33,945 nt of DNA from Oscillospiraceae bacterium. Lineage in GTDB: Bacteria > Bacillota > Clostridia > Oscillospirales > Acutalibacteraceae. The stretch spans positions 1 through 33,945 of the forward strand of contig SVQE01000028.1 in the NCBI GenBank assembly GCA_015065505.1, read 5' to 3'. Position numbers and translations under genes: made by a program. How positions within the stretch are numbered: position 1 is the stretch's first letter; every line of letters begins with the position of its first letter. The notes beneath the pieces were generated by a model. It had not been told where the DNA came from. It ran no database searches and was given only the letters and a program-made list of their open reading frames with translations. This document shows positions 10,306 through 30,984 of this stretch, in pieces.

Positions 10306-12177
10306 TTACTGCTGATAATTCTTTAAGAATTCCACAGTCTTTGAATTATCGGGAAGACGATAGATATTTATTTCAAAACTATAACTATTTCTTGTGTCAA
10401 TATCGTAATCATAGCAGTTGATAAAACCTTCAATAAAGTCGTTGTACTGATAATCCATCGAAAGCATTTCCATACTCTCTTTTTTAACGGAATCCTTGGG
10501 AACAGTGCATCTGATATAGAAATTAACATTCTCATTCATATTATTGCTGTTTTTCTTCAGTGAGGAATAGTTGTCGGTCATAGTGCCGATATCCTCTTTA
10601 AGAAGGGCAATAACCTTATCGAAATCCTGATGGTTAATTTCAATTTCATTTAAAGCTTCCTCGTTGGTGTAATCATCAACGGTGATGTCGCTGACGCTGT
10701 AATCAATGTTGAGGATGTCAAGGTAATCAAAGCAGTTAAGATATTCGTTTTTCGTTTCAATCTTTGAAATCAGCGAATTAATTTTCTTGCTGTCATAATA
10801 ATACTCATATTCTCTTGTGACGGTGTTGCCGTTTTTAAGGGCATATGAAATGCTGATAAGTGCATAATCATCGGTGCCGACATAGGATGAAACCTCGTAA
10901 TCATAATCCTTGATAGTTTTAGGGGTATGCTTGAAGCTTAGAAATTCTTCGTCCTTGGTTGAATACTTAATAAGCTCTTTTTGAAGCTCGATAGTATTTT
11001 TTATGGTTTCTTCATCATAGCTGATAATATCGTATGTTACGCTTGCTTCAGCATTTTTAATCTTATTTATATTCGGAATATAATTTGTCTGACAAACCGC
11101 AACTCCGATTGCCACTCCAATGCTCAGCGCACAGCATAAAACCCATCTTAAAATCAGTTTTACTGAAAAGATATTGAATTTCTTTTGCAGAATCATCTCT
11201 GTTGCAAAGTATATGATGAATGAGAATACAACATAGAAAACAACATATCCGATTCTGCCGAGCGAGAATATTTCTCCTATGATAAGTGAAATTAAAGAAG
11301 CACCTATTACCGAAACAATAACTCTGATAAATGGGTTCTCAATTTCAAATGCAACCATTTCGCCCGCACATTCAAGCTCTCTGCGTTTATAGATTAAATA
11401 CGAAAGCGCGCAAAGTACAATTGCTGCAACAAAATAGATTGCAAGGTATATATAGAAGCTTTGAAAAGCTATAACATTGTCAACATCATAATCTATTATT
11501 TTTGCAAACAGGTTAACAACGGGGGAGAGCAGACCTACTGATTCGCCTATAAGAACGTTTTCGTTAAGTCCTATGCCGAAAACTGAAGCGAAAAAGCTTG
11601 CTATTTCAATAAGCCCTGAGTAAAGAAAGTGCAGAATGAAATATATTGCCGCTCCCGAAAATGCGTTGCCTGCAAGCATCATTGCAAGCGCTCCGATTGC
11701 AAGCATTATAAACGACATCAGGAAGATTGATGCAAGCTGCAAAAGCACAACGGTTAAAACAACCTCGCTGCCCTTTGAAAACAATGCAATTTCGGGAATT
11801 GCAACTGCAAAGCCGAACAGCTGAGGAACAACCAGAAGAACATATGCGCTGAGAATATTTGTTGAAAACAGCGCTTTTCTGCCAATCGGGAAGGCGTGGA
11901 GCGCGTTGCACTTATTTGTTGAAAACAGATAGCTGAAAACCAGAAGCGCAAAAGCGCCTGCAAAAATCAGTGCAAAGCCGTCCGATACAAGGCAGTATGA
12001 GGTTAAATCTTCAATATCAAGCTTATCGACGAAGTCGTAGCTGATTGTTTGAGACAACAGCAGACTTAAAGGCCAGATTATGAATTCGATAATTGCAAAC
12101 AGAATTGAAAACGGAAGAAATCTTTTTATGTTTGATTTAAACAGGGTGGCGTTAAATAAGGATTTGTTTGATTTCAT
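10306..12177 (-). CDS. ABC transporter permease of a YtrA-regulated system
   Basis: This 623-residue integral membrane protein is the partner of the ATPase encoded just upstream. It has an N-terminal cluster of about 6 hydrophobic segments, more around residues 220-360, then a long polar and acidic C-terminal domain (about 390-623) that probably lies outside the membrane. There is no substrate-binding protein. The start is taken as ATG 12177, inside the end of the ATPase gene and after GGGGGAAGAAG, so the two are translationally coupled with a 26-base overlap. GntR/YtrA-ABC sets in Firmicutes often respond to cell-envelope stress or lipid-II-binding antibiotics; that role is inferred here from context only. 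Confidence 0.82.
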   Translation of the reverse strand: MKSNKSLFNATLFKSNIKRFLPFSILFAIIEFIIWPLSLLLSQTISYDFVDKLDIEDLTSYCLVSDGFALIFAGAFALLVFSYLFSTNKCNALHAFPIGRKALFSTNILSAYVLLVVPQLFGFAVAIPEIALFSKGSEVVLTVVLLQLASIFLMSFIMLAIGALAMMLAGNAFSGAAIYFILHFLYSGLIEIASFFASVFGIGLNENVLIGESVGLLSPVVNLFAKIIDYDVDNVIAFQSFYIYLAIYFVAAIVLCALSYLIYKRRELECAGEMVAFEIENPFIRVIVSVIGASLISLIIGEIFSLGRIGYVVFYVVFSFIIYFATEMILQKKFNIFSVKLILRWVLCCALSIGVAIGVAVCQTNYIPNINKIKNAEASVTYDIISYDEETIKNTIELQKELIKYSTKDEEFLSFKHTPKTIKDYDYEVSSYVGTDDYALISISYALKNGNTVTREYEYYYDSKKINSLISKIETKNEYLNCFDYLDILNIDYSVSDITVDDYTNEEALNEIEINHQDFDKVIALLKEDIGTMTDNYSSLKKNSNNMNENVNFYIRCTVPKDSVKKESMEMLSMDYQYNDFIEGFINCYDYDIDTRNSYSFEINIYRLPDNSKTVEFLKNYQQ

Positions 12178-13051
12178 TATCTTCTTCCCCCAATTCATAA
12201 ATAAATATTTCCTCAAGTGTTAAGGGCAGCGCCTCAACAAACAAAGGATTAAATTCTTCAATTTTTTGTTTAATTTCCGCTTTATCACCGCTTACAACAA
12301 GCTCGTAAACTCTGCCGGTTTTCTTTTCCTTAAGAATATTAATTCCGATATCCGCTGTGTTGATTTCATCAGTGAATGAAACCTGAATTTTTGAAAGCTG
12401 GGTTTTCAAATCGTCAAGCGAGGCTTCAAGGAAAACTCTGCCCTTATTCATAATTCCGACGGTGTCGCAAACATCCTCAAGCTCTCTGAGGTTGTGCGAT
12501 GAAATCAGAACCGTCATTTCTCTTTGCGAAACCTCGTTTATGATAAGTCCCCAAATCTGGTGGCGCATCATCGGGTCAAGACCGTCAACGGGCTCATCAA
12601 GCACAAGAATATCGGGGTTGCAGCAAATTGCAATCCAGAAGGCAACCTGCTTTTTCATACCCTTTGAAAGACGGCGAACATTCATATTCGTGTTTATGCT
12701 CGGAAAATACTTTGCATATTCCTGAAATTTGTTTTCATCAAAGTTTTCATAAAGTCCTTTATAAAAATTCTTTAAGCTGTTTGCAGAAGAGTTATGAAAA
12801 TAGAAAACATCATCGGAAATATAAACTATTCTTTTCTTGATATCATTGTTTTCGTAAACGGGAATACCGTCAACGGTTATCTCGCCGCCAGCGGCTTTAT
12901 AAATTCCGCAAAGGGTGTTCATAAGTGTTGTTTTTCCTGCACCGTTGGGGCCGACAAGACCGTAGATGCTGCCGTCGGCAATATTCATATTAACGCCGTT
13001 GAGTGCATTAAAATCGCCGAAGGCTTTAACAACATTTTTAACCTCAATCAT
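12152..13051 (-). CDS. ABC transporter ATP-binding protein
   Basis: This 299-residue cytoplasmic ATPase energises the adjacent permease. It has Walker A GPNGAGKT (34-41), a somewhat divergent signature LSKGMKKQ (128-135, in place of LSGGQ), Walker B ILVLDEP (148-154) with the D-loop VDGLDP, and the switch histidine in SSHNL (H186). A C-terminal extension of about 80 residues is typical of DrrA/CcmA/YtrB-type exporters. AAGGAGGT precedes the ATG. Its first 8 bases overlap the end of the GntR gene, so the three genes form one operon. Confidence 0.93.
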   Translation of the reverse strand: MIEVKNVVKAFGDFNALNGVNMNIADGSIYGLVGPNGAGKTTLMNTLCGIYKAAGGEITVDGIPVYENNDIKKRIVYISDDVFYFHNSSANSLKNFYKGLYENFDENKFQEYAKYFPSINTNMNVRRLSKGMKKQVAFWIAICCNPDILVLDEPVDGLDPMMRHQIWGLIINEVSQREMTVLISSHNLRELEDVCDTVGIMNKGRVFLEASLDDLKTQLSKIQVSFTDEINTADIGINILKEKKTGRVYELVVSGDKAEIKQKIEEFNPLFVEALPLTLEEIFIYELGEEDNEIKQILI

Positions 13052-17799: not shown

Positions 17800-19428
17800 C
17801 TACTTTGTCTTTACTGCCAAAGTTTCAGACCACTTAGAATAGTATTTCTTTTTGTTTACCGTTTTGTATGTACGAATTCTTACATAATACTTCTTATTTG
17901 CTTTCAAGGATTTGATAGTTCTTGCTCCTGTTTTGTTTGATGAAATTGTAACAGTTTTTGCATTTTTTAAATCTTTGTATGTGCTGTATTGAATCTGATA
18001 ACCTGTTGTTTGAGTTGTTTTCTTTTTCCAATACGCTTTAAAACTCTTCGATCCTGGTGTGAGCTTTGTTATCTCCGTCGGCTTCGGGTTAATCTTAAAG
18101 GTCTTTTCAAGTGTGCCTTTATATGTTCCTTTGCCTGTAATCGTTACTTTTGCAGTGCCGACTTTGGTGTTATTAGAATACTTTACAGTATAATCTGTAT
18201 CTTTTTTCAGCGTTGTTCCTGCAAGCTTAACGGTAACGGACGGCTTTTTTGCGCTGCCGTTATAGGTTTGTGATTTCATTGTAACAGTAGCGTTTTTGAC
18301 ATCATACATATCAATGAATGTAAATCCGTTTTCCTTGCAATAATCAGTTAACGCCTTACACTTTTTGCCGTAAACCTTGAAATTTTTGATTTTGTGTTCA
18401 GATTTAATCTCTTTTGTTCCGCCCTCAGCAGTCTGGGTGACTTGGTCAACCGTTTCGTAATAGCCGAAAGCACGTTTTCCTACACTGTCAACTCCGTAAG
18501 GAAATTTAATCGATTTAAGTGATGTGCAGTTATAAAAAGCTTCCCTGCCTAAACTTTCAATTTTGCTTTGAATTTTAACGCTTTTTAACTCTTTACAGCC
18601 GTAAAATGCATAATTGTTTATGTTCTTTATGCTTTTGGGAAGAGTAATTTTTTCAAGAGATGTGCAGTTGTTAAAACCTCCGATATCTTCAACACCTTCA
18701 GAAATAGTTATATCCGTTAAAGATGTGAAATTATTAAATAATGCTCCTTCGATTCTTGTCATACTCGGCGGAATATATAGTCTCTTAACTCCTTCGCAAT
18801 AATTAAATATTGTTAACGGGCGTGAGCTTGTGAAATTATCAATTGTAAACCCATCCTCAAAATATATCTCTTCCAAGCCTCTGCAATAGCTGAAAGCATA
18901 CAATTCAATATACAGCTTTTTTCTTAAAAACAATGCACCTTTAGCGGATGAGCAACCACTAAAAGCTCCTCCGTATATTCTTTCGAGTTTTTCAGGAAGC
19001 TCTATTTTCTTTAATGCTTTACAATCCTTAAATGCGTTTTGTCCTATATATTTAAGATTCATTGGTAAATTGGCGGTTTCAAGACAATTGCAATTATAAA
19101 ATGCCAGTTTTTTTATTCCTGTCAGGCTTTCCGGCAGTATAGCTTCTTTAATTTTTGTGCAGTTTTTAAATGAATTCTCGCCTATTACAGTTACACCTTC
19201 ATTTATTATCACTTTGTTTATATTCGTTGTTTCAAACAAATTACACCAAGGATGTGATGTAATTTCACCTGTACCGGTAATAGTAAGCACACCGTCTTTT
19301 AATTCAAATGTTGCGTTATCACCGCAGGAACCGCTTGTTTGCTGTTCATTAGCCGCATATGAGCTGAACGGAACAGAAGTAGCAATAAGCATTAAGATAG
19401 ACAATAGAAATGATAAAGTCTTTTTCAA
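17800..19428 (-). CDS. Secreted BspA-type LRR protein with bacterial Ig-like and Fn3 domains
   Basis: This 542-residue exported protein has a signal peptide (1-25, ending SSYA). It is followed by the BspA N-terminal module (CGDNATFELKDGVLTITGTG), LRR_5 repeats (about 60-340, for example LPEKLERIYGGAFSGC), a beta-rich Ig-like module (about 365-435, containing YNGSAKKPSVTVK and GTYKGTLEKTF) and an Fn3-like module (about 440-542). There is no wall-anchoring motif. The start is taken as TTG 19428, because AAAGGA lies nine bases upstream and the signal peptide begins there; an ATG further upstream (19473) would add 15 residues and lacks a ribosome site. It resembles the BspA protein at 4552-6090 in both ends. 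Likely a surface adhesin; the ligand is unknown. Confidence 0.87.
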   Translation of the reverse strand: MKKTLSFLLSILMLIATSVPFSSYAANEQQTSGSCGDNATFELKDGVLTITGTGEITSHPWCNLFETTNINKVIINEGVTVIGENSFKNCTKIKEAILPESLTGIKKLAFYNCNCLETANLPMNLKYIGQNAFKDCKALKKIELPEKLERIYGGAFSGCSSAKGALFLRKKLYIELYAFSYCRGLEEIYFEDGFTIDNFTSSRPLTIFNYCEGVKRLYIPPSMTRIEGALFNNFTSLTDITISEGVEDIGGFNNCTSLEKITLPKSIKNINNYAFYGCKELKSVKIQSKIESLGREAFYNCTSLKSIKFPYGVDSVGKRAFGYYETVDQVTQTAEGGTKEIKSEHKIKNFKVYGKKCKALTDYCKENGFTFIDMYDVKNATVTMKSQTYNGSAKKPSVTVKLAGTTLKKDTDYTVKYSNNTKVGTAKVTITGKGTYKGTLEKTFKINPKPTEITKLTPGSKSFKAYWKKKTTQTTGYQIQYSTYKDLKNAKTVTISSNKTGARTIKSLKANKKYYVRIRTYKTVNKKKYYSKWSETLAVKTK

Positions 19429-19500
19429 AAAATCAAATCCTTTCTTATTCAATATCATCATCAGGCATTTCATGTTCTATACAAATATCATCATAAACAT

Positions 19501-19562: not shown

Positions 19563-19599
19563 TTAAAGGCGTTTAAGGAAACTCCTTAAGCGTCTTTAA
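19563..19599 (-). terminator. Terminator hairpin at the end of the ATP-grasp/capA operon
   Basis: Two 17-base arms (19563-19579 and 19583-19599) pair at 15 positions around a 3-base loop. The stem includes the capA stop codon. The T-run is weak (TTTAATAGTTT). Confidence 0.65.
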
Positions 19600-20809
19600 T
19601 CTGCCGTCCTCTATATAATGTTTTATATAAGAATCTGCCGCGGCGGTAGGTTCTTTTCTTTTTGTTCAAAACAGAGGAACCTGCTTTTCTTATCATCTTT
19701 TTGAATGAGGTTTTGCCCTTTGGAGCAGCAACGGCAGCCTCGCCGTCCTCTTCCTCATCATAATCGTCGTATTTCTTCTGAATGCCTATAATGCGCTCGG
19801 ATTCAGCTGCTCTTAATTCAGCCATTTCCTCGGTTTCTCTTTCACGAAGCTCGGTTGCTTTTTCAAGGGCTTCCTTCTTTCTTACGCACTGATAGGTCCA
19901 GTTAGCAGAGTAGTTAATATCCGCAAGGTTAACAAAATAGGGGTTTTCTTCTCCTGCTTTGATTGCCATGGTTTCTCTGTCGATATGAATGGGAAGATTT
20001 TCCCAGGTGATTTCCTTATCTGTGAAGGAAAGCTTAACAAGCATACCCTCGGTTGTTCCTTCCTGGGCACGCTGATAGGTCGTGTCGAAAATAAAGTTGC
20101 CGAGTGAATAGAAAATCGGCTTGCCTTTATAGTACTCATAGCCCTGAACAACATGGGGATGATGTGCAACAATCGCATCGGCGCCCATATTTGCAATTTT
20201 ATGAAGCAGCTTTTTGTTGAAGGGCAGGGGGCAGTTTAAAAATTCTTCGCCGCCGTGATAAACAACAACAACCCAGTTAACCTTTTCTTCCTGCTTCATA
20301 ATCCTGATTTTTTCTTCAAGCTCATCAAGATTAACCTCGCAAAACGGGGCAGCCCACTTCATTCCGTGGGGTCTGAACTTTTTATATTCAATAGAGATTA
20401 TGCCAACCTTAATATCCTCGCCGATAATAAGATATCTTGATGCTTCCTCTCTGTTCCTGCCGATGCCGATATAGGCGCAGCCGAATTTTTCAAGGTTCTC
20501 GCAGCTGTCGATAACGCCGATTCTTCCGTAATCAAGCATATGGTTGTTTGCAAGCGAAACAACAACATTCGGAATTGTTTTCTGAAAAAAGGGAATAACC
20601 TCAACATCACATCTGTGAGCAAGTCTTTTCTTATTAGTTATTCTGCACTCGGTTATCGGGCTTTCCTGATTGATAACATTTGCGTCGTTTCCTTCAAAAA
20701 AGCTTTTGATTTCGGGCGCTAAAAGGTTTTCGTTTTTATATGCATCTTTGAAAAATGCGCTGAAGGAAATATCTCCCGAAAAGCCGATAGTTGTTTTGTT
20801 ACTGCTCAT
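19586..20809 (-). CDS. CapA-family (PgsA-like) metallophosphoesterase-fold protein, soluble form
   Basis: The 407 residues match the CapA family: GFSGDISF (9-16), VINQESPIT (45-53), SLANNHMLDYG (85-95), YHGGEEF, a HHPHVVQGYE loop and YSLGNFIFD. Known CapA/PgsA proteins take part in poly-gamma-glutamate or peptide-capsule synthesis and export, and carry an N-terminal membrane anchor. This one has no signal peptide or membrane segment. It adds a charged helical stretch (about 300-365) and a basic C-terminal tail rich in K and R (about 365-407). ATG 20809 overlaps the upstream stop by one base (TGATG), after GAGGAG. It is last in the five-gene operon. Confidence 0.88.
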   Translation of the reverse strand: MSSNKTTIGFSGDISFSAFFKDAYKNENLLAPEIKSFFEGNDANVINQESPITECRITNKKRLAHRCDVEVIPFFQKTIPNVVVSLANNHMLDYGRIGVIDSCENLEKFGCAYIGIGRNREEASRYLIIGEDIKVGIISIEYKKFRPHGMKWAAPFCEVNLDELEEKIRIMKQEEKVNWVVVVYHGGEEFLNCPLPFNKKLLHKIANMGADAIVAHHPHVVQGYEYYKGKPIFYSLGNFIFDTTYQRAQEGTTEGMLVKLSFTDKEITWENLPIHIDRETMAIKAGEENPYFVNLADINYSANWTYQCVRKKEALEKATELRERETEEMAELRAAESERIIGIQKKYDDYDEEEDGEAAVAAPKGKTSFKKMIRKAGSSVLNKKKRTYRRGRFLYKTLYRGRQIKDA

Positions 20810-22032
20810 CACTTGGTTTCCTCCTCAGCCACATATTCATTATTTTTGATTAACTCGAGGCGCTCGTTTAATACATCCTCGGATATAATTCCTTCTTCAA
20901 ATTCCATGAAGGAATCAAATTCAGCTTCCATATTCTTATAAAGATAAAGTCTGCCGTTGAAATTGGTAAGCTGTGCAGAAACGCACTGCGGAGTTGCATT
21001 TCCTTCAACAAATATCCAGCCCTTATCGGTGTATGAAAGGTCCCAGCCTACAAGGCGTATCTGAGGAATAACATGGGAAAGCTTGTTAACGAGTTCAAGC
21101 AGCTTGTCCCATTCGGGAATTTGAAGTCCGATTAATTTTGCGCCCGTGTCGGGGTGGAAAAGGTGCTCTGCACCCAGCCAGTCCCTTCCGGGAAGATATG
21201 CAATACCCGTTTTCGGGTCAACCATAATTGCAAGACCGCCCGAGCTCATATTATCCGTGTGACTGCCGCCCATACCCATACGAAGGAAGCACCACTGAAT
21301 TTTGGTTTCTCCGCTCGGGGAAAGGAAGGCAACAACGCGCATCGTATTAACCGACGCGGGATGAAGCGATTTGATCGGGTCTGCCTGAACAATAAGCTCT
21401 TCAACAACACAGCAGCCGTTGAAAAGAATAACATCAAAGAGCTCTTTTAATGAGCCGTATTTTTTGGAATTGTAGATTTTAACGCCGTGTCCTCCGTAAT
21501 CGTCTGCTGGCTTATATATAAATCTTTCGTGCTTGCCTACGAATTCAACAAAGGCATCAAAATCGTTTTCATCATAAATGCAAAGAACATCTCTTTTATA
21601 GAATTCCTTGAACTTCTTGTAGGTTTCGGTTTTCTTGTTGAGATAGTCAACATAGTTCTGGTTGTTGAATTTTCTGTAGAAGGGATATTTGTTGTTCCTT
21701 GTTAAATAGGTTATTCTTGCCTCGTGAGTGAGCATTCTGAAATCAAACGAAAAATACTCCCTCGTAACAGTTCCGTACATAAATCTGCTGAAAAGAATAT
21801 CGTTATAGATTCTGCGAACTGTTCTGCGCGAAGCAAGCTCTTCCTCGGTTAAATAATCGCTCATAACCTTGAGCGCAGATTCAAAACGCTTTTTTGATTT
21901 TCCGAAAACAAAAAGCGCAAAGCGATATGTATTTGCTATTGCCCAAACAGCAAAATCAGAGTGGAAGCCTTTTTTCTGACACCACTTTCTGACCTTTTTT
22001 GATTGCTTTATGAGCGGATTGTTCTTTTTCAT
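20809..22032 (-). CDS. Sugar-transfer-associated ATP-grasp protein (first of three)
   Basis: This 407-residue cytoplasmic ligase-like protein is of the ATPgrasp_ST type. After a basic N terminus, the ATP-grasp fold shows KPADDYGGHGV (174-184, nucleotide loop), VVEELIVQ (209-216), SVNTMRVV (227-234), HPDTG (293-297) and the C-terminal metal site GWDLSYTDKG...FVEGNA (329-346). ATP-grasp enzymes activate a carboxylate as acyl-phosphate and join it to an amine. The substrate here is unknown; the neighbours point to an amino-acid or peptide addition to a surface polymer or its sugar precursor. The ATG follows AAGGGGT. There are 17 bases to the nucleotidyltransferase gene upstream. Confidence 0.88.
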   Translation of the reverse strand: MKKNNPLIKQSKKVRKWCQKKGFHSDFAVWAIANTYRFALFVFGKSKKRFESALKVMSDYLTEEELASRRTVRRIYNDILFSRFMYGTVTREYFSFDFRMLTHEARITYLTRNNKYPFYRKFNNQNYVDYLNKKTETYKKFKEFYKRDVLCIYDENDFDAFVEFVGKHERFIYKPADDYGGHGVKIYNSKKYGSLKELFDVILFNGCCVVEELIVQADPIKSLHPASVNTMRVVAFLSPSGETKIQWCFLRMGMGGSHTDNMSSGGLAIMVDPKTGIAYLPGRDWLGAEHLFHPDTGAKLIGLQIPEWDKLLELVNKLSHVIPQIRLVGWDLSYTDKGWIFVEGNATPQCVSAQLTNFNGRLYLYKNMEAEFDSFMEFEEGIISEDVLNERLELIKNNEYVAEEETK

Positions 22033-22049
22033 ATGATACCCCTTGTTTG

Positions 22050-22643
22050 TTAGTGCGCGCCTGAAATTCTCTGAATATCTTCAGGAGAATTAATGTTATA
22101 TGTTGAGTTTTTAAACTCGATAAATTTATCGGCAATCTGTTTTTTATCAAGGTCAAGATTCCGGTATGATAGATAAACCTGCCAGCCTATGCACTGCTTG
22201 ATTTTTCCTTCAACATAAAGCTGACGCACTCTTTCAAAGTGCTTTCTGAACAAACTGCCGTCCTTAATCTTAATCGCAACAATGCTTCTTTGCGTTCCGA
22301 AAAAAAGCATATCATCAACCCTGGTTTTAACTATCGTGTCAATCGCATCATCGGAATAATATGTGTCCCCATAAAGAAAACATATATCATCGTCTATAAG
22401 CTCTCTGGTGAAACGGTCGATTTCAAGCTCGTTATTCAGCGGCGCATAAAGAACAGCGCCCTCTGTTTCATAATCTTTATTATGAGTGGTGATGATTACT
22501 TCGGCGTTTTCATCATATTTTCTTATTAAATTGGTTGTTCTGGCAAGAAGCGTTATGCCGTCGATTTTTATAAGGTGTTTTGAAACATCCATATAATTAT
22601 CCCAGCGCTGACCCTTGCCGTCTGCCATAATAATATACTTCAT
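22050..22643 (-). CDS. Small nucleotidyltransferase (NTP-transferase fold)
   Basis: This 197-residue protein begins KYIIMADGKGQRW (2-14), a variant of the GxGxR nucleotide loop, followed by SKHLIKIDG (21-29). FLYGDTYYS (89-97, D93) is the metal-binding aspartate element. These are the features of MobA/IspD/LicC-type cytidylyl- or guanylyltransferases, which make NDP-activated building blocks. It is shorter than most (about 230). Beside a CDP-glycerol glycerophosphotransferase homologue, a CDP-alcohol or NDP-sugar product is plausible but unproven. It lies six bases after the ATP-grasp gene upstream, with a weak ribosome site, which suggests translational coupling. Confidence 0.8.
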   Translation of the reverse strand: MKYIIMADGKGQRWDNYMDVSKHLIKIDGITLLARTTNLIRKYDENAEVIITTHNKDYETEGAVLYAPLNNELEIDRFTRELIDDDICFLYGDTYYSDDAIDTIVKTRVDDMLFFGTQRSIVAIKIKDGSLFRKHFERVRQLYVEGKIKQCIGWQVYLSYRNLDLDKKQIADKFIEFKNSTYNINSPEDIQRISGAH

Positions 22644-22649
22644 TTCAAG

Positions 22650-23696
22650 CTACTTTCTGATTACTTTATGATAACGGTAAAAGTCTCCGAGTTCGCCGTT
22701 TCGCTGACCGCCCCAGAGCTGAATAATGTTAACGCCCGAGGAGGTGTTGGCTTCAATTATGCATAAGCCCTCTTCTGTTACAAGAATATCCCACGCAACA
22801 AAATTCATAAACGAAACCTTGTTTGCAAGCGCAAGGATTTCTTCCTTGATTTTATCCCAACCCGGAACAAATGCACCCTTAATCGGAGCACTTGTGTCGG
22901 GATGATATTCATAAACATTGTGGTTGTGAAGCGTTCTTGCCTCTGAAAGCTCGCCCGTTTCAAGGTCGATTTTTGAAATAAGCGCGCCCTCGCTTCCGTT
23001 GTCAACGGGAACGGTTTTTGAAGTGCCTATTCTCTGAACGGCAAAGAACACCTTAATTTTCTGCGTTTTGGGGTCGCGCAGGGTTATAAGCCTTATGGTG
23101 TTTGCAGTTTTATCAAAAATATCGTTGAGATATTTGTGCTGATTGATGTATTCAGTGAGCATCCAGTTGTCGTTTTTCTTAAGAACATCAATAATACCGA
23201 GCTCGTCTGTTTCATCAAGCCCGATATAAAATCTGCCGTTTTCATATTTAAACATATAAACGCCGATGCCCTTGCCCCTGCCGTAGGGCTTGATAATAAG
23301 CTTTCTCTCTCTTTTTAAAAGGTTGATGATATCCTCGTAAGTTGTGATTTTATCATCATCAGAGGTTATGTGCTTTCTGTTTTTAACGGCATAGGTTTTT
23401 GCAACCCTGATATACTGACCCAGAACAAGCGAACAAACAACCTTGTTGTTGAGCATAAAATCAAACGGCTCGTTGATATATCTTGATTTATACCAATCGA
23501 ATTCCGAAAGATATTCGTGCCTGTCGTTATGGTCGAAATCGTAAAGTGCATACTGGTCGGCAAGATAGCCGCCGAAAAGATTTGCCTTAAGCTTCTTGTA
23601 AAACGGCACCTTGAAATGATTTTTAGCAAAAACAATCCGAACGAAATAAAGAACGAAAAGCTTTAGCTTTTTTATAACTGCTTTAATAAACTTCAT
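22650..23696 (-). CDS. Sugar-transfer-associated ATP-grasp protein (second of three)
   Basis: This 348-residue ATP-grasp protein parallels the 20809-22032 product. It has IIKPYGRGKGIGVY (134-147), NTIRLITLRD (199-208), YEYHPDTSAPIKG (262-274), AWDILVTEEG (301-310) and IIEANTSSGVNI (313-324). The N terminus has a short hydrophobic, basic stretch (about 8-25) that may touch the membrane. Its divergence from the other ATP-grasp copies suggests a different acceptor or amino acid, not redundancy. The start codon overlaps the stop of the preceding gene (ATGA). Confidence 0.87.
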   Translation of the reverse strand: MKFIKAVIKKLKLFVLYFVRIVFAKNHFKVPFYKKLKANLFGGYLADQYALYDFDHNDRHEYLSEFDWYKSRYINEPFDFMLNNKVVCSLVLGQYIRVAKTYAVKNRKHITSDDDKITTYEDIINLLKRERKLIIKPYGRGKGIGVYMFKYENGRFYIGLDETDELGIIDVLKKNDNWMLTEYINQHKYLNDIFDKTANTIRLITLRDPKTQKIKVFFAVQRIGTSKTVPVDNGSEGALISKIDLETGELSEARTLHNHNVYEYHPDTSAPIKGAFVPGWDKIKEEILALANKVSFMNFVAWDILVTEEGLCIIEANTSSGVNIIQLWGGQRNGELGDFYRYHKVIRK

Positions 23697-24817
23697 TTTC
23701 TTTTACCTAAAGAGTCAATAATATAATCGCCTATGGCTTTTGTTGAGGTTCCGAGATTTTCGGGAAGGAACTTCTTTTTATAGTTTTCAAGAGCTGCAGC
23801 AGGATAATCCTTTTCAAGCGCCTCGGTTAAAGACTCGGCGTTTTCAAAAACACATCCCGGCATTTCTTCAAACAAATCAATGTTCAAGCCGTTGTTTTCC
23901 TTATACTGCTCGTAGTCATAAACATAGTAGAAGGTTTTAACATCAAGCAGAGCGCCTTCAACGGCGATTGCCGAATAATCTGTTATAAGATAATCGCAAA
24001 CGCTGAGAAGCTCAACCGATGAAAATTCATCACAGGTTAAGCAATCAGCGGTTAAATTAAGCTTCTGATTGGGATGGTTTTTAACAATCAGAGCGTATTT
24101 ATTAAAGTCTAAAAGCTCGGCAAAACTATCCCATTCGGCGTTCCAGCCCCTTCTAAAAGTCGGAGCATAGAGTAAAACCTTTTTGTTTTCAAGCTCGGGA
24201 TATGCCTTGAGAATTCTTTCTTTGTTTTCCTCTTTTGTTGCAAGAAGATAGTCAATTCTCGGAAGTCCGCAGTTTAAAAGCACATCTTCCGAAACATCGA
24301 AGGATTCGCAGTAGAATTTGTTCCAAGCCTTGCCGCCTGCAATAATAACATCGTAATTTCTGTGCATTGCCATGGCTTTTGCGATTTTGGGATTTCTGCC
24401 GCTCTTTTTATTAAGCGCCTTATATCCCGATTCCTTGATTTTGCCCATAGCGTGCCATATCTGAACAACGGTGAGCGTTTTTTTGTGCTTAAGCATTGAA
24501 ACTGCAGGCCAGTAGCCGTCTATAACGCAGACTCTTGAAGTTGCAAGGTGATAAACGGAGCGGAGAATGTTTTTAAGGAAAATAACATATTCAATATTGC
24601 CCTTTTCCTTTTTCTCGTATCTTCTGCATATGCTGACGATTTTTATATCGGGCTTCTGCTCTTTCAGATAATCCTGAATAAGCCTGTAGTCAAGGCTTGC
24701 GCCATTTGTCTGCCGGCTTAAGAAAATAACCTTATTCTTTTTTGAGGGAAGCAGCTTTAAGGGCGCATAAATTATTGCAAGAAAAACCCTTAAAACATAG
24801 ATGATAAAAACTTTCAC
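23693..24817 (-). CDS. CDP-glycerol glycerophosphotransferase family protein (TagB/TagF-like)
   Basis: This 374-residue glycosyltransferase-fold protein carries QIWHAMGKIKESGY (near 119-132), APTFRRGW (near 218-225), KNHPNQ (near 247-252) and ITDYSAIAVEGALL (near 278-291), the motif set of TagB/TagF enzymes that transfer glycerol phosphate from CDP-glycerol in teichoic-acid synthesis. It lacks the long N-terminal region of polymerising TagF, which fits a primase-like or single-transfer role; family members also use other CDP-polyols. The first 20 residues are hydrophobic and may associate with the membrane. It begins with GTG, after AAGAGGAA, and heads the five-gene operon. Confidence 0.88.
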   Translation of the reverse strand: MKVFIIYVLRVFLAIIYAPLKLLPSKKNKVIFLSRQTNGASLDYRLIQDYLKEQKPDIKIVSICRRYEKKEKGNIEYVIFLKNILRSVYHLATSRVCVIDGYWPAVSMLKHKKTLTVVQIWHAMGKIKESGYKALNKKSGRNPKIAKAMAMHRNYDVIIAGGKAWNKFYCESFDVSEDVLLNCGLPRIDYLLATKEENKERILKAYPELENKKVLLYAPTFRRGWNAEWDSFAELLDFNKYALIVKNHPNQKLNLTADCLTCDEFSSVELLSVCDYLITDYSAIAVEGALLDVKTFYYVYDYEQYKENNGLNIDLFEEMPGCVFENAESLTEALEKDYPAAALENYKKKFLPENLGTSTKAIGDYIIDSLGKRK

Positions 24818-24870
24818 TTCTGTTCCTCTTAAATCAATAAAGTATAGTACTACTTATAATATAAAGTGAG

Positions 24871-24899
24871 TTTAACACAATACTAATAATTATGTCAAT
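24871..24899 (-). promoter_or_regulatory. Possible promoter of the ATP-grasp/capA operon
   Basis: On the minus strand TTGACA (24894-24899) and TTAAAC (24871-24876) are 17 bases apart, in a very AT-rich stretch. The -10 box is poor, and other placements are possible. Confidence 0.4.
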
Positions 24900-24929
24900 A
24901 TTTATTATTTTATAAAGAATACTGTGTCA

Positions 24930-24958
24930 GTCAAAAATCCCCTTTGTCAAGGGGATTT
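24930..24958 (-). terminator. Terminator of the transglutaminase-like gene
   Basis: AAATCCCCTT and AAGGGGATTT pair around a 4-base loop, followed by TTTTTGA on the minus strand. It separates this gene from the operon downstream. Confidence 0.85.
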
Positions 24959-24965
24959 CTGCATT

Positions 24966-27668
24966 TTATTTACAGGTTATGTTTTTAACCGAAGAATATG
25001 CGGAATAAATCTTCTTTGAGCCGACAGTTTTGTAGGCTCTTACTTTGTAGTAATATTTTTTGCCCTTTTTAAGCCCTGTATTCTTGAAAGTTAAGGTTGA
25101 GGCGCTGCCCTGCTTAACTGTTTTAACAAGTCTGTATTTTCCGCCGGAGCTTGTTGCCCTGTATACCTCATAGCCTGTAACATTAGCGATTTTCGGGAAG
25201 GAAACGGAAACATATTTGCTTCCTGTTTTAAGCGTTACCTTCGGAGTCGGAGGAACAACCTGCTTTGAAACAATGGCAGAATTTGTGCTCACGGGCATAT
25301 AGCTTGCACCGCTAACATTCTTGTATGCAACAACATAGTAGTAATAGGTTTTGCCCGTTGTGAGCCCCGTTTTGGTAACCGAGGTTGTTGCATTGCCCGT
25401 AACCTTTGTTCCAACATATCCGCTGTTTTTGGAAGTGCTTTTGTAAACCCAGTAACCGTCGGCATAGTTAACCTTATCCCAGCTGATTTTCTGAGCAGTG
25501 GGCGAGGCTGCGGTGATTTTAACATTCTGCGGTGTGCCGAGTTTAACAAATTTTGCAGTATAAGTGAAAGAAGAGGTTGTTGAGGTTGTGTATTCAGCGG
25601 CAGAGCTTAACTTTGTTCCGCTTGAATTAAACCAACCGGAGAAATAATATCCCAAATCGGCATAAGCCTTCATATTGTGTTTGCCGTTTTCATAGCCAAC
25701 ATAGAAGGTTCCGCCCTTTGTTGCGGTGATGCTTGCAGTTTTGTTTGTTTTGAAGGTGTATTTTGCCGAGGTGAGGGGATTGAATTTTGCATTTAAGGTT
25801 GTTATTGACTTGCAGCCCGTTGCGTCAACCTTTGTTAATCCGCACGAGGAAGCAAACGCCGAAAGCAGCTCCGTATTTCCCGAAAGATTAAGCGAGGTGA
25901 GCTTTGTGTTGTTTGAAGCCGAAAACCACTTAAGTCCATTGCAGTTTGAAAAATCAGCTGCGCCTGCAAGTGTTGTAACCTTTGTGAAATCGATTTTTTC
26001 AATTTCACCCGTCAGATAGTTTGCGTAGAAAATATCCGAGTTCCAGGTGGGTATGCCACTGTTGGCATTGAAGGTGCTGCTTGAGCCGAGAAGCTTTGCG
26101 TTGGTTGTGCTTCCTGATTTCTGATTAAGGAATGCCGAGAGCTTGTTTACATCGTTTTGCGCTGCGATAACAGTTCTTGAGTAAACGCCGAGGCAGCAGT
26201 GTGAAACTGCAAGCTGTTCGGGTGACGGGTCGAAATATGTGAAGCTGTTTTGCGCTTTTTCACCTGCGTTGCCGCCCTCAAACTGCGATTTATCGCGGTA
26301 CCACTTGTTTGAGGTTCCCATATTTGCGTCGGCAATAATCCATCTTTCGCCGTCGAAAAATTCAACCCAGTAGTGTTCGTCTTCCTTCTGATTTTCAGGG
26401 TCGATATTACAGTTCCACGATTCTTTCGGAAGGCTGAGGTGAATTCCGTATACAACCCTTGTTGGAATATCAAGTGCGCGAAGCATTGCGCACATCATTG
26501 ATGCATAGCCTACGCAGCAGGTGAACGCATTTTCACCGTCGGAAATCTTTTTAAGGTTTGTATAGGGGTTGTTTATTGTTTTAACTGCTGAGTGATTGTT
26601 TGAATAATCGTCGTAATATGTGTTGGCACTTACATAGCTGTATATTGCCTTTGCCTTGTTGTAAACGCCCTCGCTGTTCTTTGTTTTATCCTTTGCAAGA
26701 TTTTCAATGAATTTAAGCTGAGTGCTTGTTAAGGATGCTTTTTCCGATTCAAGCTTTGTTGGCTTTGTTGCCCCTGTGTCGTTAACAAGATTGTGAAGGC
26801 AGAAGGGAACATCTTCCATTGTTTTATCGGTGTAGAATTCGGGATTGAGATAAAGAGGATTTGTGTAAACAGATTCATTTTGCGCCTGAATATCACAGTA
26901 ATCAACGAACGAAGCCTCGCCGTTTTCATCAATGTTGATTAAAACATTTCTGTAGCAGTTGCCGACGTCGCCGAAAGAATAATGGTCCTGCTGTTCTTCG
27001 TTTCTGGCTCTTGCTATCTGAATATAATAATTGCCCTCTTCAAGACCTGCACCCTCAAGGTTTACGCTTGCCGAAAATCCGTTGCAGGTAACTTCTTCCG
27101 TGCTTCTGTCCTCGGGATCTGCAAAACACAGAGTTTTAAATCCGCCGCCAACTTTTGTTAAACCCACTCTGTATTCAACTGCTTCAATCTCGCAGGTGTA
27201 ATCAACATTAAGAACCGTCATTTTGCCGGGCTCTTCGGGGTTTTCAGGCTCTTCAGGATCTTCAGGATCGGGATCCTCAGGATCAGGGTCTTCGGGATTT
27301 ACTGCAATGGGCTCGGTTTCCCAATCGACGGATTCATTTGGCGTTGTGTCATCGCCGCCGGGTTCTTCCGGATCAGGGTCTTGCGGATCGGGGTCTTCCG
27401 GGTCGGGATCTTCCGGGTCAGGGTCTTCCGGGTCGGGGTCTTCGGGTTCCTCCGGTGTTGGTTGCTCGGGCATTTTGTCGGTTATTGACAGAGTAACTCT
27501 GTTAACGCTGTCCGAGGGTGCATTTTCGTTTATGCTGCTGAATTCATATGTGCTTTCGGTGCTGATTTTATCCGAAATATCAACGCTTGCGCTAACCGAA
27601 AAAGGTATGCACTGCGCTATAAGCACAGCCGAAAGAAAAACAGCTAAAATTCTCTTAATCTTTTTCAT
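24966..27668 (-). CDS. Secreted transglutaminase-like protein with acidic Pro/Asp linker, LRR-like segment and Fn3 domains
   Basis: This 900-residue exported protein has a signal peptide (1-27, ending SVSA). A low-complexity PEDPDPEDP linker follows (about 65-150), then a beta-rich domain. The transglutaminase/protease-like core has FTCCVGYASMMCAM (C385), EHYWVEFFDGERW (H432) and IIADANMG (D447) as the Cys-His-Asp triad. A short LRR-like stretch follows (about 560-640, SLNLSGNTELLSAF), then a B-repeat-like region (about 650-690) and two Fn3 modules (about 690-900). It has no LPXTG or SLH anchor. Such triads cross-link or cleave surface proteins; the substrate is unknown. ATG 27668 is chosen since AAAGGA is nine bases upstream; TTG 27677 lies too close to that site. 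It has its own promoter and terminator. Confidence 0.86.
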   Translation of the reverse strand: MKKIKRILAVFLSAVLIAQCIPFSVSASVDISDKISTESTYEFSSINENAPSDSVNRVTLSITDKMPEQPTPEEPEDPDPEDPDPEDPDPEDPDPQDPDPEEPGGDDTTPNESVDWETEPIAVNPEDPDPEDPDPEDPEEPENPEEPGKMTVLNVDYTCEIEAVEYRVGLTKVGGGFKTLCFADPEDRSTEEVTCNGFSASVNLEGAGLEEGNYYIQIARARNEEQQDHYSFGDVGNCYRNVLINIDENGEASFVDYCDIQAQNESVYTNPLYLNPEFYTDKTMEDVPFCLHNLVNDTGATKPTKLESEKASLTSTQLKFIENLAKDKTKNSEGVYNKAKAIYSYVSANTYYDDYSNNHSAVKTINNPYTNLKKISDGENAFTCCVGYASMMCAMLRALDIPTRVVYGIHLSLPKESWNCNIDPENQKEDEHYWVEFFDGERWIIADANMGTSNKWYRDKSQFEGGNAGEKAQNSFTYFDPSPEQLAVSHCCLGVYSRTVIAAQNDVNKLSAFLNQKSGSTTNAKLLGSSSTFNANSGIPTWNSDIFYANYLTGEIEKIDFTKVTTLAGAADFSNCNGLKWFSASNNTKLTSLNLSGNTELLSAFASSCGLTKVDATGCKSITTLNAKFNPLTSAKYTFKTNKTASITATKGGTFYVGYENGKHNMKAYADLGYYFSGWFNSSGTKLSSAAEYTTSTTSSFTYTAKFVKLGTPQNVKITAASPTAQKISWDKVNYADGYWVYKSTSKNSGYVGTKVTGNATTSVTKTGLTTGKTYYYYVVAYKNVSGASYMPVSTNSAIVSKQVVPPTPKVTLKTGSKYVSVSFPKIANVTGYEVYRATSSGGKYRLVKTVKQGSASTLTFKNTGLKKGKKYYYKVRAYKTVGSKKIYSAYSSVKNITCK

Positions 27669-27719
27669 AATTCTCAATCCTTTCTAAAGAGCATTTGCAA
27701 AAATTTGTTGCTTAAATAT

Positions 27720-27748
27720 ATTATATAATAATTTTCTTATAAATTCAA
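27720..27748 (-). promoter_or_regulatory. Promoter of the transglutaminase-like gene
   Basis: On the minus strand TTGAAT (27743-27748) and a perfect TATAAT (27720-27725), spacer 17. Confidence 0.75.
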
Positions 27749-27826
27749 GTGCCTGCACCCTTCAAATGCGGAATTTGAGCAGGAACAATCTGCCTTATCA
27801 GGAACACTTTCACAAATATAATAATA

Positions 27827-27855
27827 TTGACAAAAAGACCGAAATTTATTAAAAT
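27827..27855 (+). promoter_or_regulatory. Promoter of the 942-residue ATP-grasp gene
   Basis: A perfect TTGACA (27827-27832) and TAAAAT (27850-27855), spacer 17. AAGGAG (27875-27880) precedes the ATG at 27888. It diverges from the transglutaminase-like gene. Confidence 0.82.
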
Positions 27856-27887
27856 ATTAAGTTAGATGAACTTCAAGGAGAAACGCT

Positions 27888-30716
27888 ATGAGAATACCTG
27901 CTAATGAAATAAAAAATGTTGCTAAAAAGGCTGATATTTCATATTTTGAAGCCAACAAAAAAATGCTTGCCGCAAGAAAGGAATACGGCATTTCCTACAG
28001 CCTTTATAACAAGCTTGAGCTCTGGAAATTATCCGATAATGAGTTCAAGGCAAGGGCAAAATCAATAAACAAAAGGCGCAACAGAATTGAAGCGCTTATG
28101 CAGAAAAAAGGGCTTTCATATGAAGACGCTGTTAAGCTTGCTGATTATGTAAAAATGCAATATGGAATTTCGCTTGAGGATTTCCTTTCCAAAAAGCTTT
28201 ATGAGCTCAGTGATTATGAGCTTGCAGTTTGGGCGGAAAAGAAAAATGAGGGCAAGGCTCCGGGCGGAAGAAAAAAGTGGATATTAAGAGTTGCCGATAA
28301 AACAGGCTGGTCCTTTGAAGAAGCAAGCGAAAAGGTTACAAGGGCGCAGGCTGCTTTCGGCGTTAAGGCAAAAGCATATTACACCCATAAAATGTATGAA
28401 ATGTCCGAAACCGAAATGGCAACGGTTGCGCTTCGTCTCAGCAGGCAGCAGGCACGCAGGGATGAGGTTTATGACAAAATCTATGAAATCTGCTCGAAAA
28501 CCAAAGAGGAAGTCAGAGCGGAAATGGAAAAAATCCGCCTCAAGCAGCCGTTTTTCACCGTTGGCGTTAACTGGTATTTTGATTACGGAATCTATGAGCT
28601 TGACCTTGAAAAGGATAACTATGAGGTTGACAGAAGAATTCAGACAACTATCTGGATTTGGCAGCTTGCATCAAGGATAAGAGAAAAAATTGTCTCTATC
28701 GAAGATGGCAAAATGAACTATGCGGAGGTTGAAGACGAGGTTAACGAATTCTATGAAACCGTTGACAAGGTTCTTTCAAACGGCAAGAGGGAAATGCTTA
28801 TTGAAACCGTTAAATATGCAGTTCCAGAGGTTGAAACCGATGAAAAAATCAGGCACGATGTTGCGCTTGATATGCGAGTTACCGAGCTTCTTCTTAAATT
28901 CAATCCCGATGAATATGTTTCTTTCCATTTCTACGGAAAAAGCATCATGGAAAAGCAGACATATGTTTCAAGCGTTATGAGGGCACAGGTTATTGAAACC
29001 CTTAATCCCCAACACATCAAGGATATGTTCAACAACAAATTTGCCGCATACAGCGCGCTAAGCAAATATTACGGCAGAGAGATTGTTCTTGTTGACGGCG
29101 AAAACGCAAGGGATATTTTCAAGGATTTCTGTGCAAGACACAAAACCTTTGTTAAGAAAAACAACTACGACGCTTTAGGAAGAGGCGTTGAAAAAATTGA
29201 AATAACTCCGCAAACCGATGTTGACGCACTTTACGAGGAGCTTTCAGAGGGCGGAAAGCTGATTATTCTTGAAGAGTTAATCAGTGCTCACGATGAAATC
29301 AAGAAGCTCAACAGGGATTCAGTTAACACGGTCAGAATCATTACATATGTTAAGAACTATAACGCAGAGGTTATCAGCACCTTTATGAAAATCGGAAGGC
29401 AGGGTGCATTCGTTGATAACGGCGGTGCAGGCGGTATTCTTGTTCATATTGATAAAGAAAACGGCGTGCTCGACAGCAACGGAATAGATGAACGCGGAAT
29501 AGTTTACGAAACCCACCCCGATAACGGCTATCAGTTCAACGGCATTCAGCTTCCCGACTGGGATAAGGCACTCAGACTTGCAAAGAAAATTGCGCTTGAA
29601 ATCAAGGATGCAAGATTTATCGGCTGGGATTTCACCTACACCGATGAGGGCAAGTGGGTTGTTGTTGAGGGTAACGCCTTAACTCAGTTCTTTGCTCAGC
29701 AGGCAACTGTTGGCAGGGGAATTAAGCGTGAATTCCTTGAGCAGATAGGCTATGATGAGTTAAAGCTCATCCATGAAAGCAAGCTTGAAGCCGAGTCATA
29801 TGATGAGGACGAGGTTTACGAATTCGAAAGAAGCGACGAAAAAGAATTCTTCTTTATGGAAGGTAAAGTAACGCCTCAGATGAAGCGCCATTATCTTGAG
29901 GAACGCGGATTTGCCGAAATGAAGTATTTCCCGAATCTCAGCGACCCCAAAACAATAAACGAAAAAATTCTCTGGCTTGCGCTTAATTTCAAGCATCCCG
30001 ATATTGCAAGGGCTGCCGACAAAACAACGGCAAAGGATTATATTGCTGAGAAGGTTGGCAGGGAATATACCGTTCCAACCTACGGTGTTTACGATAATGC
30101 TTCGGATATAGACTTTGACTCGCTTCCGAGGTCGTTTGTTATCAAGCTTAACGACGGCTGGGGCGCATCAAGCGTTAAGGTTATTAAGGATAAGGATGCC
30201 GAGGATATAGACAGCCTTAAGGCAGAGCTTACCTCGTGGCTCTATCCGTGGAACAACTATTACTACAGAAATATGTTAGTAACCGACGAGAAGGTTGAAA
30301 AGCCTGCTCTCATAGTTGAAAAGATGCTTAAAAACGAGGGCAGAGCTTCGCTTAACGATTATAAGATTTACTGCTGTAACGGCGAGCCGAAGTATGCGCT
30401 TGTTGTAAGCGACCGCTTAACAAATATGGAAAGCCGAACCTTTGTTGATATGGATTGGAACATTCTTCCAACGGGAAGAAGGGGAAAGAGATTTTCAGAT
30501 AATCCGCCGAAGCCCGAAAACCTTGATAAAATGCTTGAGCTTTCGCGTATTCTCAGCAAGGAATTTCCGTATGTAAGAATTGATTTCTACGAGGTTGATA
30601 ACAGGGTTTACATCGGCGAACTTACCTTCACACCGGGAATGTTTATGCGTTTCACAACTCTTGAGTGGGACCGCAAGCTCGGCGACTTGCTTGATTTATC
30701 GGCTTATATTAAATAA
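27888..30716 (+). CDS. Fusion of four helical repeats, ATP-grasp (sugar-transfer type) and TupA-like ATP-grasp
   Basis: This 942-residue cytoplasmic protein has no membrane segment. Residues 7-247 hold four tandem repeats of about 57 residues, with a pattern like SYEDA, then YGIS, then KLYELSD (units near 7-60, 64-118, 129-185, 190-247). Residues about 330-610 are an ATPgrasp_ST domain: FVKKNNYDALGRG (421-433), SVNTVRIITY (478-487), ETHPDNG (541-547), GWDFTYTDEG (579-588) and VVEGNALTQ (592-600). An acidic linker follows. Residues about 665-942 match TupA-like ATP-grasp: DPKTINEKILW (686-696), SFVIKLNDGWGASSV (749-763), LNDYKIYCCNGEP (822-834), VRIDFYEVDNRVYIGELTF (896-914) and EWDRKLG (926-932). 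TupA acts in teichuronopeptide synthesis in an alkaliphilic Bacillus. I infer a two-step ligase for an amino-acid-bearing wall polymer. Confidence 0.85.
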   Translation: MRIPANEIKNVAKKADISYFEANKKMLAARKEYGISYSLYNKLELWKLSDNEFKARAKSINKRRNRIEALMQKKGLSYEDAVKLADYVKMQYGISLEDFLSKKLYELSDYELAVWAEKKNEGKAPGGRKKWILRVADKTGWSFEEASEKVTRAQAAFGVKAKAYYTHKMYEMSETEMATVALRLSRQQARRDEVYDKIYEICSKTKEEVRAEMEKIRLKQPFFTVGVNWYFDYGIYELDLEKDNYEVDRRIQTTIWIWQLASRIREKIVSIEDGKMNYAEVEDEVNEFYETVDKVLSNGKREMLIETVKYAVPEVETDEKIRHDVALDMRVTELLLKFNPDEYVSFHFYGKSIMEKQTYVSSVMRAQVIETLNPQHIKDMFNNKFAAYSALSKYYGREIVLVDGENARDIFKDFCARHKTFVKKNNYDALGRGVEKIEITPQTDVDALYEELSEGGKLIILEELISAHDEIKKLNRDSVNTVRIITYVKNYNAEVISTFMKIGRQGAFVDNGGAGGILVHIDKENGVLDSNGIDERGIVYETHPDNGYQFNGIQLPDWDKALRLAKKIALEIKDARFIGWDFTYTDEGKWVVVEGNALTQFFAQQATVGRGIKREFLEQIGYDELKLIHESKLEAESYDEDEVYEFERSDEKEFFFMEGKVTPQMKRHYLEERGFAEMKYFPNLSDPKTINEKILWLALNFKHPDIARAADKTTAKDYIAEKVGREYTVPTYGVYDNASDIDFDSLPRSFVIKLNDGWGASSVKVIKDKDAEDIDSLKAELTSWLYPWNNYYYRNMLVTDEKVEKPALIVEKMLKNEGRASLNDYKIYCCNGEPKYALVVSDRLTNMESRTFVDMDWNILPTGRRGKRFSDNPPKPENLDKMLELSRILSKEFPYVRIDFYEVDNRVYIGELTFTPGMFMRFTTLEWDRKLGDLLDLSAYIK

Positions 30717-30765: not shown

Positions 30766-30984
30766 GATATTGAAATCGCTGAGGGGAACAATGCGTTGAT
30801 ATCAAAGCTTCAGAGAGCGCTTGGCAGGTGAGAAAGCGCGCAGAGATTTTAACGATACCAACCCCGAGAGCGCATAGGAAATGATGCGCCGTATGCCTGC
30901 GTTAAAGGCTTTGAGTGGCACAATTATTTGTGCAATTCAGGTGGAACCGTGTTTAAGCACCCTGAAATTCAGGGTGCTTTTTAT
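30766..30984 (+). promoter_or_regulatory. T-box riboswitch of thrS, with terminator
   Basis: The leader of about 240 nt contains the T-box core AGGTGGAACCGTG (30939-30951). Before it is a stem III-like hairpin GCACAA/TTGTGC (30918-30933). After it is an intrinsic terminator, AAGCACCCTG (30955-30964) with CAGGGTGCTT (30970-30979) and TTT. CAGG (30938-30941) can pair with CCTG (30961-30964) as the antiterminator. The stem I region begins near 30810 (GCGCTT/AAGCGC). ACC at 30857-30859 is the likely threonine specifier codon. Uncharged tRNA-Thr would switch on thrS. Confidence 0.93.

Follow-up and report, generated by a model that had tools for sequence, protein, structure and literature searches.

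In a 33,945-nucleotide stretch of DNA from an Oscillospiraceae bacterium (assembly GCA_015065505.1, contig SVQE01000028.1; the whole stretch is called the window here), a block of genes at positions 19586 to 30716 encodes a TagB/F-like phosphotransferase, two ATP-grasp ligases (AG4 and AG2), a small nucleotidyltransferase (NT), a CapA-type metalloenzyme, a secreted transglutaminase-like protein and a fusion protein with two more ATP-grasp domains. Comparison with related genomes supports the view that these genes, NT aside, form one evolutionary unit. As a tentative reading, to which we give somewhat less than an even chance, the block would be an accessory module whose enzymes work on the cytoplasmic side of the membrane and produce a surface polymer, or the head-group of one, that is linked by phosphodiesters and decorated with amides. 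A preliminary description of the window had proposed that the genes together attach amino acids or short peptides to a glycerol-phosphate or sugar polymer at the cell surface. At the level of families, that broad inference holds up best: the genes are linked in all five genomes that carry the fusion, their families fit the role, a Campylobacter enzyme discussed below offers a precedent and pathway parts missing from the block lie elsewhere in the genome. Its specific analogies need correction, so that the interpretation overall is partly supported.

The operon runs leftward from 24817 to 19586, all on the minus strand, in the order TagB/F-like gene, AG4, NT, AG2 and CapA. The TagB/F-like gene (23693..24817; GTG start), predicted to encode a CDP-alcohol phosphotransferase, matches Glyphos_transf (PF04464) with 170 bits against a cut-off of 22.1. 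AG4 (22650..23696) and AG2 (20809..22032) match ATPgrasp_ST (PF14397; cut-off 31.4) with 132 and 154 bits, NT (22050..22643) has a sub-threshold IspD match (19.7 bits of 27), and CapA (19586..20812, likely start ATG at 20809) matches PGA_cap (PF09587) with 173.8 bits against 27. The preliminary description gave the right order and the overlaps ATGA (TagB/AG4) and TGATG (AG2/CapA), but only two of the four junctions overlap and the others are spaced by 6 and 17 bp. It also correctly placed a fusion of ATPgrasp_ST with a TupA-like domain 3 kb away (27888..30716, 942 residues; the gene is on the plus strand, divergent from the operon), but missed that the gap holds the transglutaminase-like gene (24966..27677, minus strand). 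The fusion starts with four helical repeats of about 62 residues (27888-28630, plus strand; no Pfam match), followed by a linker, ATPgrasp_ST (residues 364-616; PF14397, 150 bits) and a TupA-like ATP-grasp (692-935; ATPgrasp_TupA, PF14305, 173 bits, cut-off 25). Three of the four PF14397 matches of the genome fall in the block, more than chance would give (p ~1.7e-4 for four random positions with three within 8.8 kb); a PF04464 gene lies some 12 kb from the fourth, on the same contig. A terminator-like hairpin 3' of the transglutaminase gene (24939..24953, minus strand) and a promoter-like site before the operon (24869..24898, minus strand; TTGACA, 18 bp, TAAACT) part the transglutaminase gene from the TagB-like gene, so that on consensus evidence alone the block probably comprises three transcription units. 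The TTGACA is kept in all five loci and the −10-like box in four, and a hairpin read by eye lies at the same place in all five.

Genome samples of the genus (80), the family (130) and the class (391) were surveyed for relatives. Full-length fusion orthologues occur in five of the 80 genus genomes, and in the family and class samples only in the window genome. The carriers are the window genome (G000), G135, G161, G166 and G175; the latter four are metagenome-assembled genomes named 'Eubacterium sp.', of which three name the rumen or reticulum and one red deer. In all five, the transglutaminase, TagB, AG4, AG2 and CapA genes lie beside the fusion in the same arrangement (identity 52-93%), and AG4 orthologues in the four other species are 80-87% identical. 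The block sits beside ThrRS in four carriers. In G161, where ThrRS is on C19, the block occupies a place on contig C25, flanked on one side by the gene of an AI-2E transporter and on the other by a run of genes that includes a nickel-insertion protein. The claim of one evolutionary unit is made because the genes are linked in all five fusion carriers and at another chromosomal site in one of them. Against the window, dN/dS is low, 0.04-0.20 where dS is finite, values that are rough because many dS values exceed 1. As an observation, the preliminary description was confirmed as a whole: the open reading frames lie where it had placed them, the Pfam families of all parts but NT score over cut-off and the block recurs in four other species. 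Orthologues that are unlinked and independently conserved would speak against a joint role; the orthologues found are linked in every fusion carrier (NT in three). Query P0002 matches four of the 391 class genomes at E ≤ 1e-45, and the fetched stretches of the three genomes other than the window genome contain no CapA, TupA or TagB/F-like gene.

NT is an optional part, which the preliminary description did not recognize. It is present in three of the five carriers and missing from G135 and G166, and a search of the 80 genus genomes returned the same three carriers plus two weak matches at 7-8e-4. A short spacer in each of the two NT-less genomes keeps the 3' end of the gene. In G135, 23 of 25 bases are retained and none of 2000 mononucleotide shuffles did as well; in G166, 19 of 22 bases are retained, a result reached by 6 of 2000 shuffles against the whole gene and by 1 of 2000 against its last 60 bases. 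NT was lost in these two genomes and left a scar. The other six genes appear to be useful without NT, because their dN/dS between G135 and G166 is 0.04-0.14.

The presence of the block is patchy. Exchange of the block between species is possible, although horizontal exchange was dropped as a claim since the trees are mixed; the claim is limited to patchy presence and one other chromosomal site. A concatenated cluster tree joins G135 with G166 (0.996), whereas the ThrRS tree joins the window with G135 (0.998) and G166 with G175 (0.946). Among single-gene trees, only that of the fusion backs G135 with G166 (1.000), those of CapA (0.640) and AG2 (0.767) agree with ThrRS in pairing the window and G135, and those of AG4 and TagB favor neither clearly. 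Identities cannot reveal exchange either, because ThrRS itself occurs in the genus as two divergent versions (54-64% vs 86-96%). The flank of ThrRS may be a site where PF04464 genes recur, as others of this family are found beside ThrRS in G138 and G161, and beside the module in G175 (L030, L035 and L046).

The TagB-like protein has TarL, Cps3D and TagF among its PDB matches, and its H122 (QIWHAMG) and H248 (KNHPNQ) align with the two catalytic histidines of the TagF active site (3l7i). It is 38% identical to another TagB-like protein of the genome that is encoded beside TagD, a likeness to the TagB/TarB and TagD step that primes wall teichoic acid. Neither of the two reaches the NCBIfam equivalog cut-off for TarB of 500 bits (139.8 bits for the block protein, 137.2 bits for the one beside TagD). 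ATP-grasps and CapA are not known to take part in the wall teichoic acid pathway. The TagB-like protein and AG4 both have a hydrophobic N-terminus, which, taken with the TagB/F-like gene, would point to a membrane acceptor. In the ATPgrasp_ST domains, columns with Lys, Glu, Arg, Asp and Glu-x-Asn, the conserved ATP-grasp residues with catalytic roles, are invariant across 13 aligned proteins, and the orthologues of AG4 and of the fusion retain them. Sequence searches found no convincing relative of ATPgrasp_ST among solved structures. The TupA columns Lys, Glu, Asp, Arg-x-Asp and Glu are likewise invariant in an 11-row alignment.

CapA has a basic C-terminal tail and no signal-peptide-like, membrane or strongly hydrophobic segment, and is probably cytoplasmic. 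Its residues D14, E50, N90, H91, D94, H186, H218 and H220 are kept in all five orthologues. The link to poly-gamma-glutamate capsules that the preliminary description drew for CapA comes down to the family name. In a search that covered the block alone, none of its proteins matches a CapB or CapC model. The transglutaminase-like protein has a signal-peptide-like hydrophobic N-terminus, a PED-rich stretch, Transglut_core (PF01841, 65.5 bits) and fn3, and one Cys, His and Asp are kept in six copies from five species. The module of G166 has two adjacent transglutaminase-like genes (L041:5122-9686), the second of which lacks the fn3-type tail seen in the other copies.

Under the proposed polymer pathway, the TagB-like enzyme would take a phospho-alcohol from its CDP carrier and pass it to a membrane acceptor. 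The TagD encoded on contig C71 could supply CDP-glycerol, and NT, where present, may add a second CDP-(amino)alcohol. The four ATP-grasp domains (AG4, AG2 and the two of the fusion) would then join carboxylates and amines, which could be amino acids or phospho-amino-alcohols, to the acceptor as amides, and CapA, with its phosphoesterase-type motif, may remove phosphate or trim the product. The flippase and wall attachment would be shared with other loci. Outside the cell, the transglutaminase may form cross-links between protein and the polymer with its amines, which is the weakest step. The substrates, the identity of the product and the task of the transglutaminase are all inferred; amino acids or peptides are candidate ligated groups and glycerol phosphate a candidate acceptor. 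A more elaborate version is unlikely: an amide-forming line of four ATP-grasps on a CDP-alcohol-primed membrane acceptor would yield a new kind of surface polymer, a polyamide or aminoacylated polyphosphodiester that the transglutaminase links to surface proteins, with the fusion repeats docking the other ligases.

Profile scans (Pfam and NCBIfam) of the block proteins gave no match to a glycosyltransferase or transporter, nor to TagA, TagO or TagD. The preliminary description, which saw no flippase, polymerase or sugar-lipid initiating enzyme in the window, had concluded that the pathway would be incomplete or shared with another locus; sharing fits the genome, but the pathway need not be incomplete, because TagD, TarI/TarL-like, initiating transferase, flippase and Wzy-like genes lie elsewhere. 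Four further PF04464 genes are found in the window genome (on C71, C95, C28 and C81). On C71, the gene is the TagB-like one beside TagD (TIGR01518, 195.8 bits, cut-off 165.4). On C95, a TarL-like gene has an alcohol dehydrogenase gene and TarI (356 bits, cut-off 166) beside it, and on C81 the gene belongs to an exopolysaccharide locus that also encodes a flippase, a Wzy-like protein and an initiating sugar transferase. Bac_transf, Polysacc_synt and Wzy_C all have matches over cut-off in this genome.

The neighborhoods of related genes outside the module were drawn as a selection of TupA and PF14397 loci from the survey match lists, in fetched stretches of 4 to 20 kb. Relatives of ATPgrasp_ST are widespread, with query P0004 matching 44 of the 130 family genomes at 1e-10. 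Of 26 PF14397 loci fetched, 25 were annotated and one without an annotated open reading frame (L016) was left out. Several observations weigh against the proposed polymer pathway. A TagB/F-like gene occurs in none of the 25 annotated loci within the fetched stretches, CapA in two (one broken) and TupA in two, which speaks against a wider linkage. The AlphaFold model of NT shows a nucleotidyltransferase fold for which VIA-align puts LicC and PntC first but with GlmU tied, and Foldseek ranks RmlA first. A minority of the loci bring the families together. In G189 (L059:8615-12133), a protein of 1172 residues combines fusion-type repeats, ATPgrasp_ST, CapA and a BspA-type leucine-rich repeat (LRR) region, and three open reading frames beside it match ATP-grasp families, two of them over cut-off. 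TupA and CapA adjoin on C59 of G166, ATPgrasp_ST adjoins TupA in G015, and both occur in one run of genes in G183. Three genomes (L048, L078 and L079) have ATPgrasp_ST beside an amino-acid permease and a further ATP-grasp gene close by. At L049, L050 and L051, ATPgrasp_ST lies beside a protein of 755-821 amino acids (Pfam-negative in the two scanned), and a neighbor of about 355 amino acids, dockerin-like in the two scanned, is also present.

The TupA domain bears most directly on which chemistry the block performs. Cj1438C, a TupA-like enzyme of the C. jejuni HS:2 capsule, forms amides on a capsule sugar, acting on glucuronic acid with ATP and (S)-serinol phosphate or ethanolamine phosphate, after which Cj1435 removes the phosphate (PMC11800379). 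The block resembles this system (Cj1438C/Cj1435/Cj1437) in linking a TupA domain to the phosphoesterase-type CapA, which may act as Cj1435 does after Cj1438C, and, in three of five carriers, to a nucleotidyltransferase. It differs in that Cj1438C is fused to a GT2 glycosyltransferase, whereas the TupA domain of the block is fused to ATPgrasp_ST and repeats. The acceptor also sets the two apart: three of five carriers lack a UDP-sugar dehydrogenase (PF03721, cut-off 27) over cut-off. Only G161 and G166 have one, and that of G166 sits in the separate TupA locus on C59. In the draft genomes G000 (89% complete) and G135 (97%), the best scores are 20-21.5 bits, and G175 (95%) has no match; absence from drafts that are 89-97% complete is no proof.

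These counts bear on how far the teichuronopeptide of alkaliphilic Bacillus, to which the preliminary description had likened the TupA domain, can serve as a model. It would have the ATP-grasps attach peptides or amines to the carboxylates of a uronic-acid polymer. The TupA domain in the fusion and the glucuronic acid acceptor of Cj1438C (PMC11800379) both favor it, as does the presence of a UDP-sugar dehydrogenase in the same stretch for seven of nine TupA loci outside the module (L021, L054, L055, L056, L057, L058 and L061). Such a pattern would be expected if those enzymes amidate uronic acids in the manner of Cj1438C. Yet the block has no uronic-acid gene and no glycosyltransferase match, a dehydrogenase scores over cut-off in only two carriers, and, of the two TupA loci that lack a dehydrogenase match, one holds the closest TupA relative of the fusion in the surveys (54%, in G076). 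There (L013:6185-11683), LicD, CTP-transferase-like, Asn_synthase-like and TupA genes stand in a row with three TupA domains. The analogy is thereby weakened; as an obligate model, it was rejected on the three carriers without a dehydrogenase over cut-off, and as an account of the block it is unlikely. Phospho-(amino)alcohol chemistry is preferred over uronic-acid chemistry because of the TupA neighbors in G076, the use of serinol phosphate and ethanolamine phosphate by Cj1438C and, more weakly, the tentative likeness of NT to LicC/PntC.

An improbable alternative is that successive ATP-grasps build a small non-ribosomal peptide, with CapA as an epimerase like MslH of lasso-peptide synthesis (PDB 8gq9), a PGA_cap-like relative of CapA by sequence. 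The Ca ligands of MslH are given as Glu44, Asn87, His259 and His261 (PMC10406935). CapA keeps three counterparts (N90 and H186 in the alignment, E50 on inspection), whereas His261 aligns with Gly188, a glycine in all five orthologues, and His218 stands where MslH has Gly293. With one of the four metal ligands missing, CapA was rejected as an MslH-type epimerase. No lasso-peptide family is among the block matches, the TagB/F-like gene and the hydrophobic N-termini point instead to a membrane acceptor, and the profile scans found no transporter match in the block.

The ATP-grasps could instead modify a protein, at the surface or in the cytoplasm, by adding amino acids in the style of RimK or TTL, with the transglutaminase as cross-linker. 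Weak matches to the RimK-related TIGR02291 (33-56 bits vs a cut-off of 314) and the transglutaminase of every carrier fit this proposal, but the block holds no conserved candidate substrate protein, the TagB-like and nucleotidyltransferase genes are left without explanation, and a signal peptide is found on the transglutaminase and not on the ATP-grasps; it is very unlikely. That the operon and the transglutaminase/fusion genes are unrelated neighbors side by side by chance, as the separating promoter- and terminator-like sites and the opposite strand of the fusion might suggest, is disfavored and very unlikely, the genes (NT aside) being together in all five carriers, including G161 at its other chromosomal place.

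In Clostridium acetobutylicum, a sugar-phosphate nucleotidyltransferase shares one surface-polysaccharide operon (CA_C2186-2196) with an 'ATP-grasp amino acyl ligase', a precedent for finding these two kinds of enzyme together in such an operon (PMC4000134). Unlike the block, that operon is rich in glycosyltransferases and has sialic-acid-type genes, and the part of the source available lists no CapA, TagB or TupA (PMC4000134). The families of the block are known, and their arrangement was not found described in the literature searched, in which the Pfam names of the ATPgrasp_ST family were not found in use either; earlier prediction of parts is possible, and the 2009 amidoligase survey may discuss the families.

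On its right, the module is flanked by a T-box leader (30770-30967; RF00230, 102.9 bits) and then ThrRS. On its left, a BspA-type LRR and fn3 protein (17800-19473) lies between PNPase and the module; it was rejected as a module part since CapA abuts PNPase in G135 without an LRR gene. A second BspA-type LRR and fn3 protein of the window lies at 4552-6090. An ABC transporter ATPase and a 636-amino-acid neighbor without a Pfam match (10306-13051) have relatives in G135.

This bacterial family is rich in ATPgrasp_ST relatives, and the module offers a small, testable set of genes for finding their substrates. The fusions and neighbors in relatives tie ATPgrasp_ST to CapA and TupA, and the survey parts TupA genes tied to uronic-acid supply from a TupA that is seemingly independent of uronic acid. 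Should the product prove to be a teichoic-acid-like polymer that bears amides, the module would give rumen bacteria an added way to change their surface.

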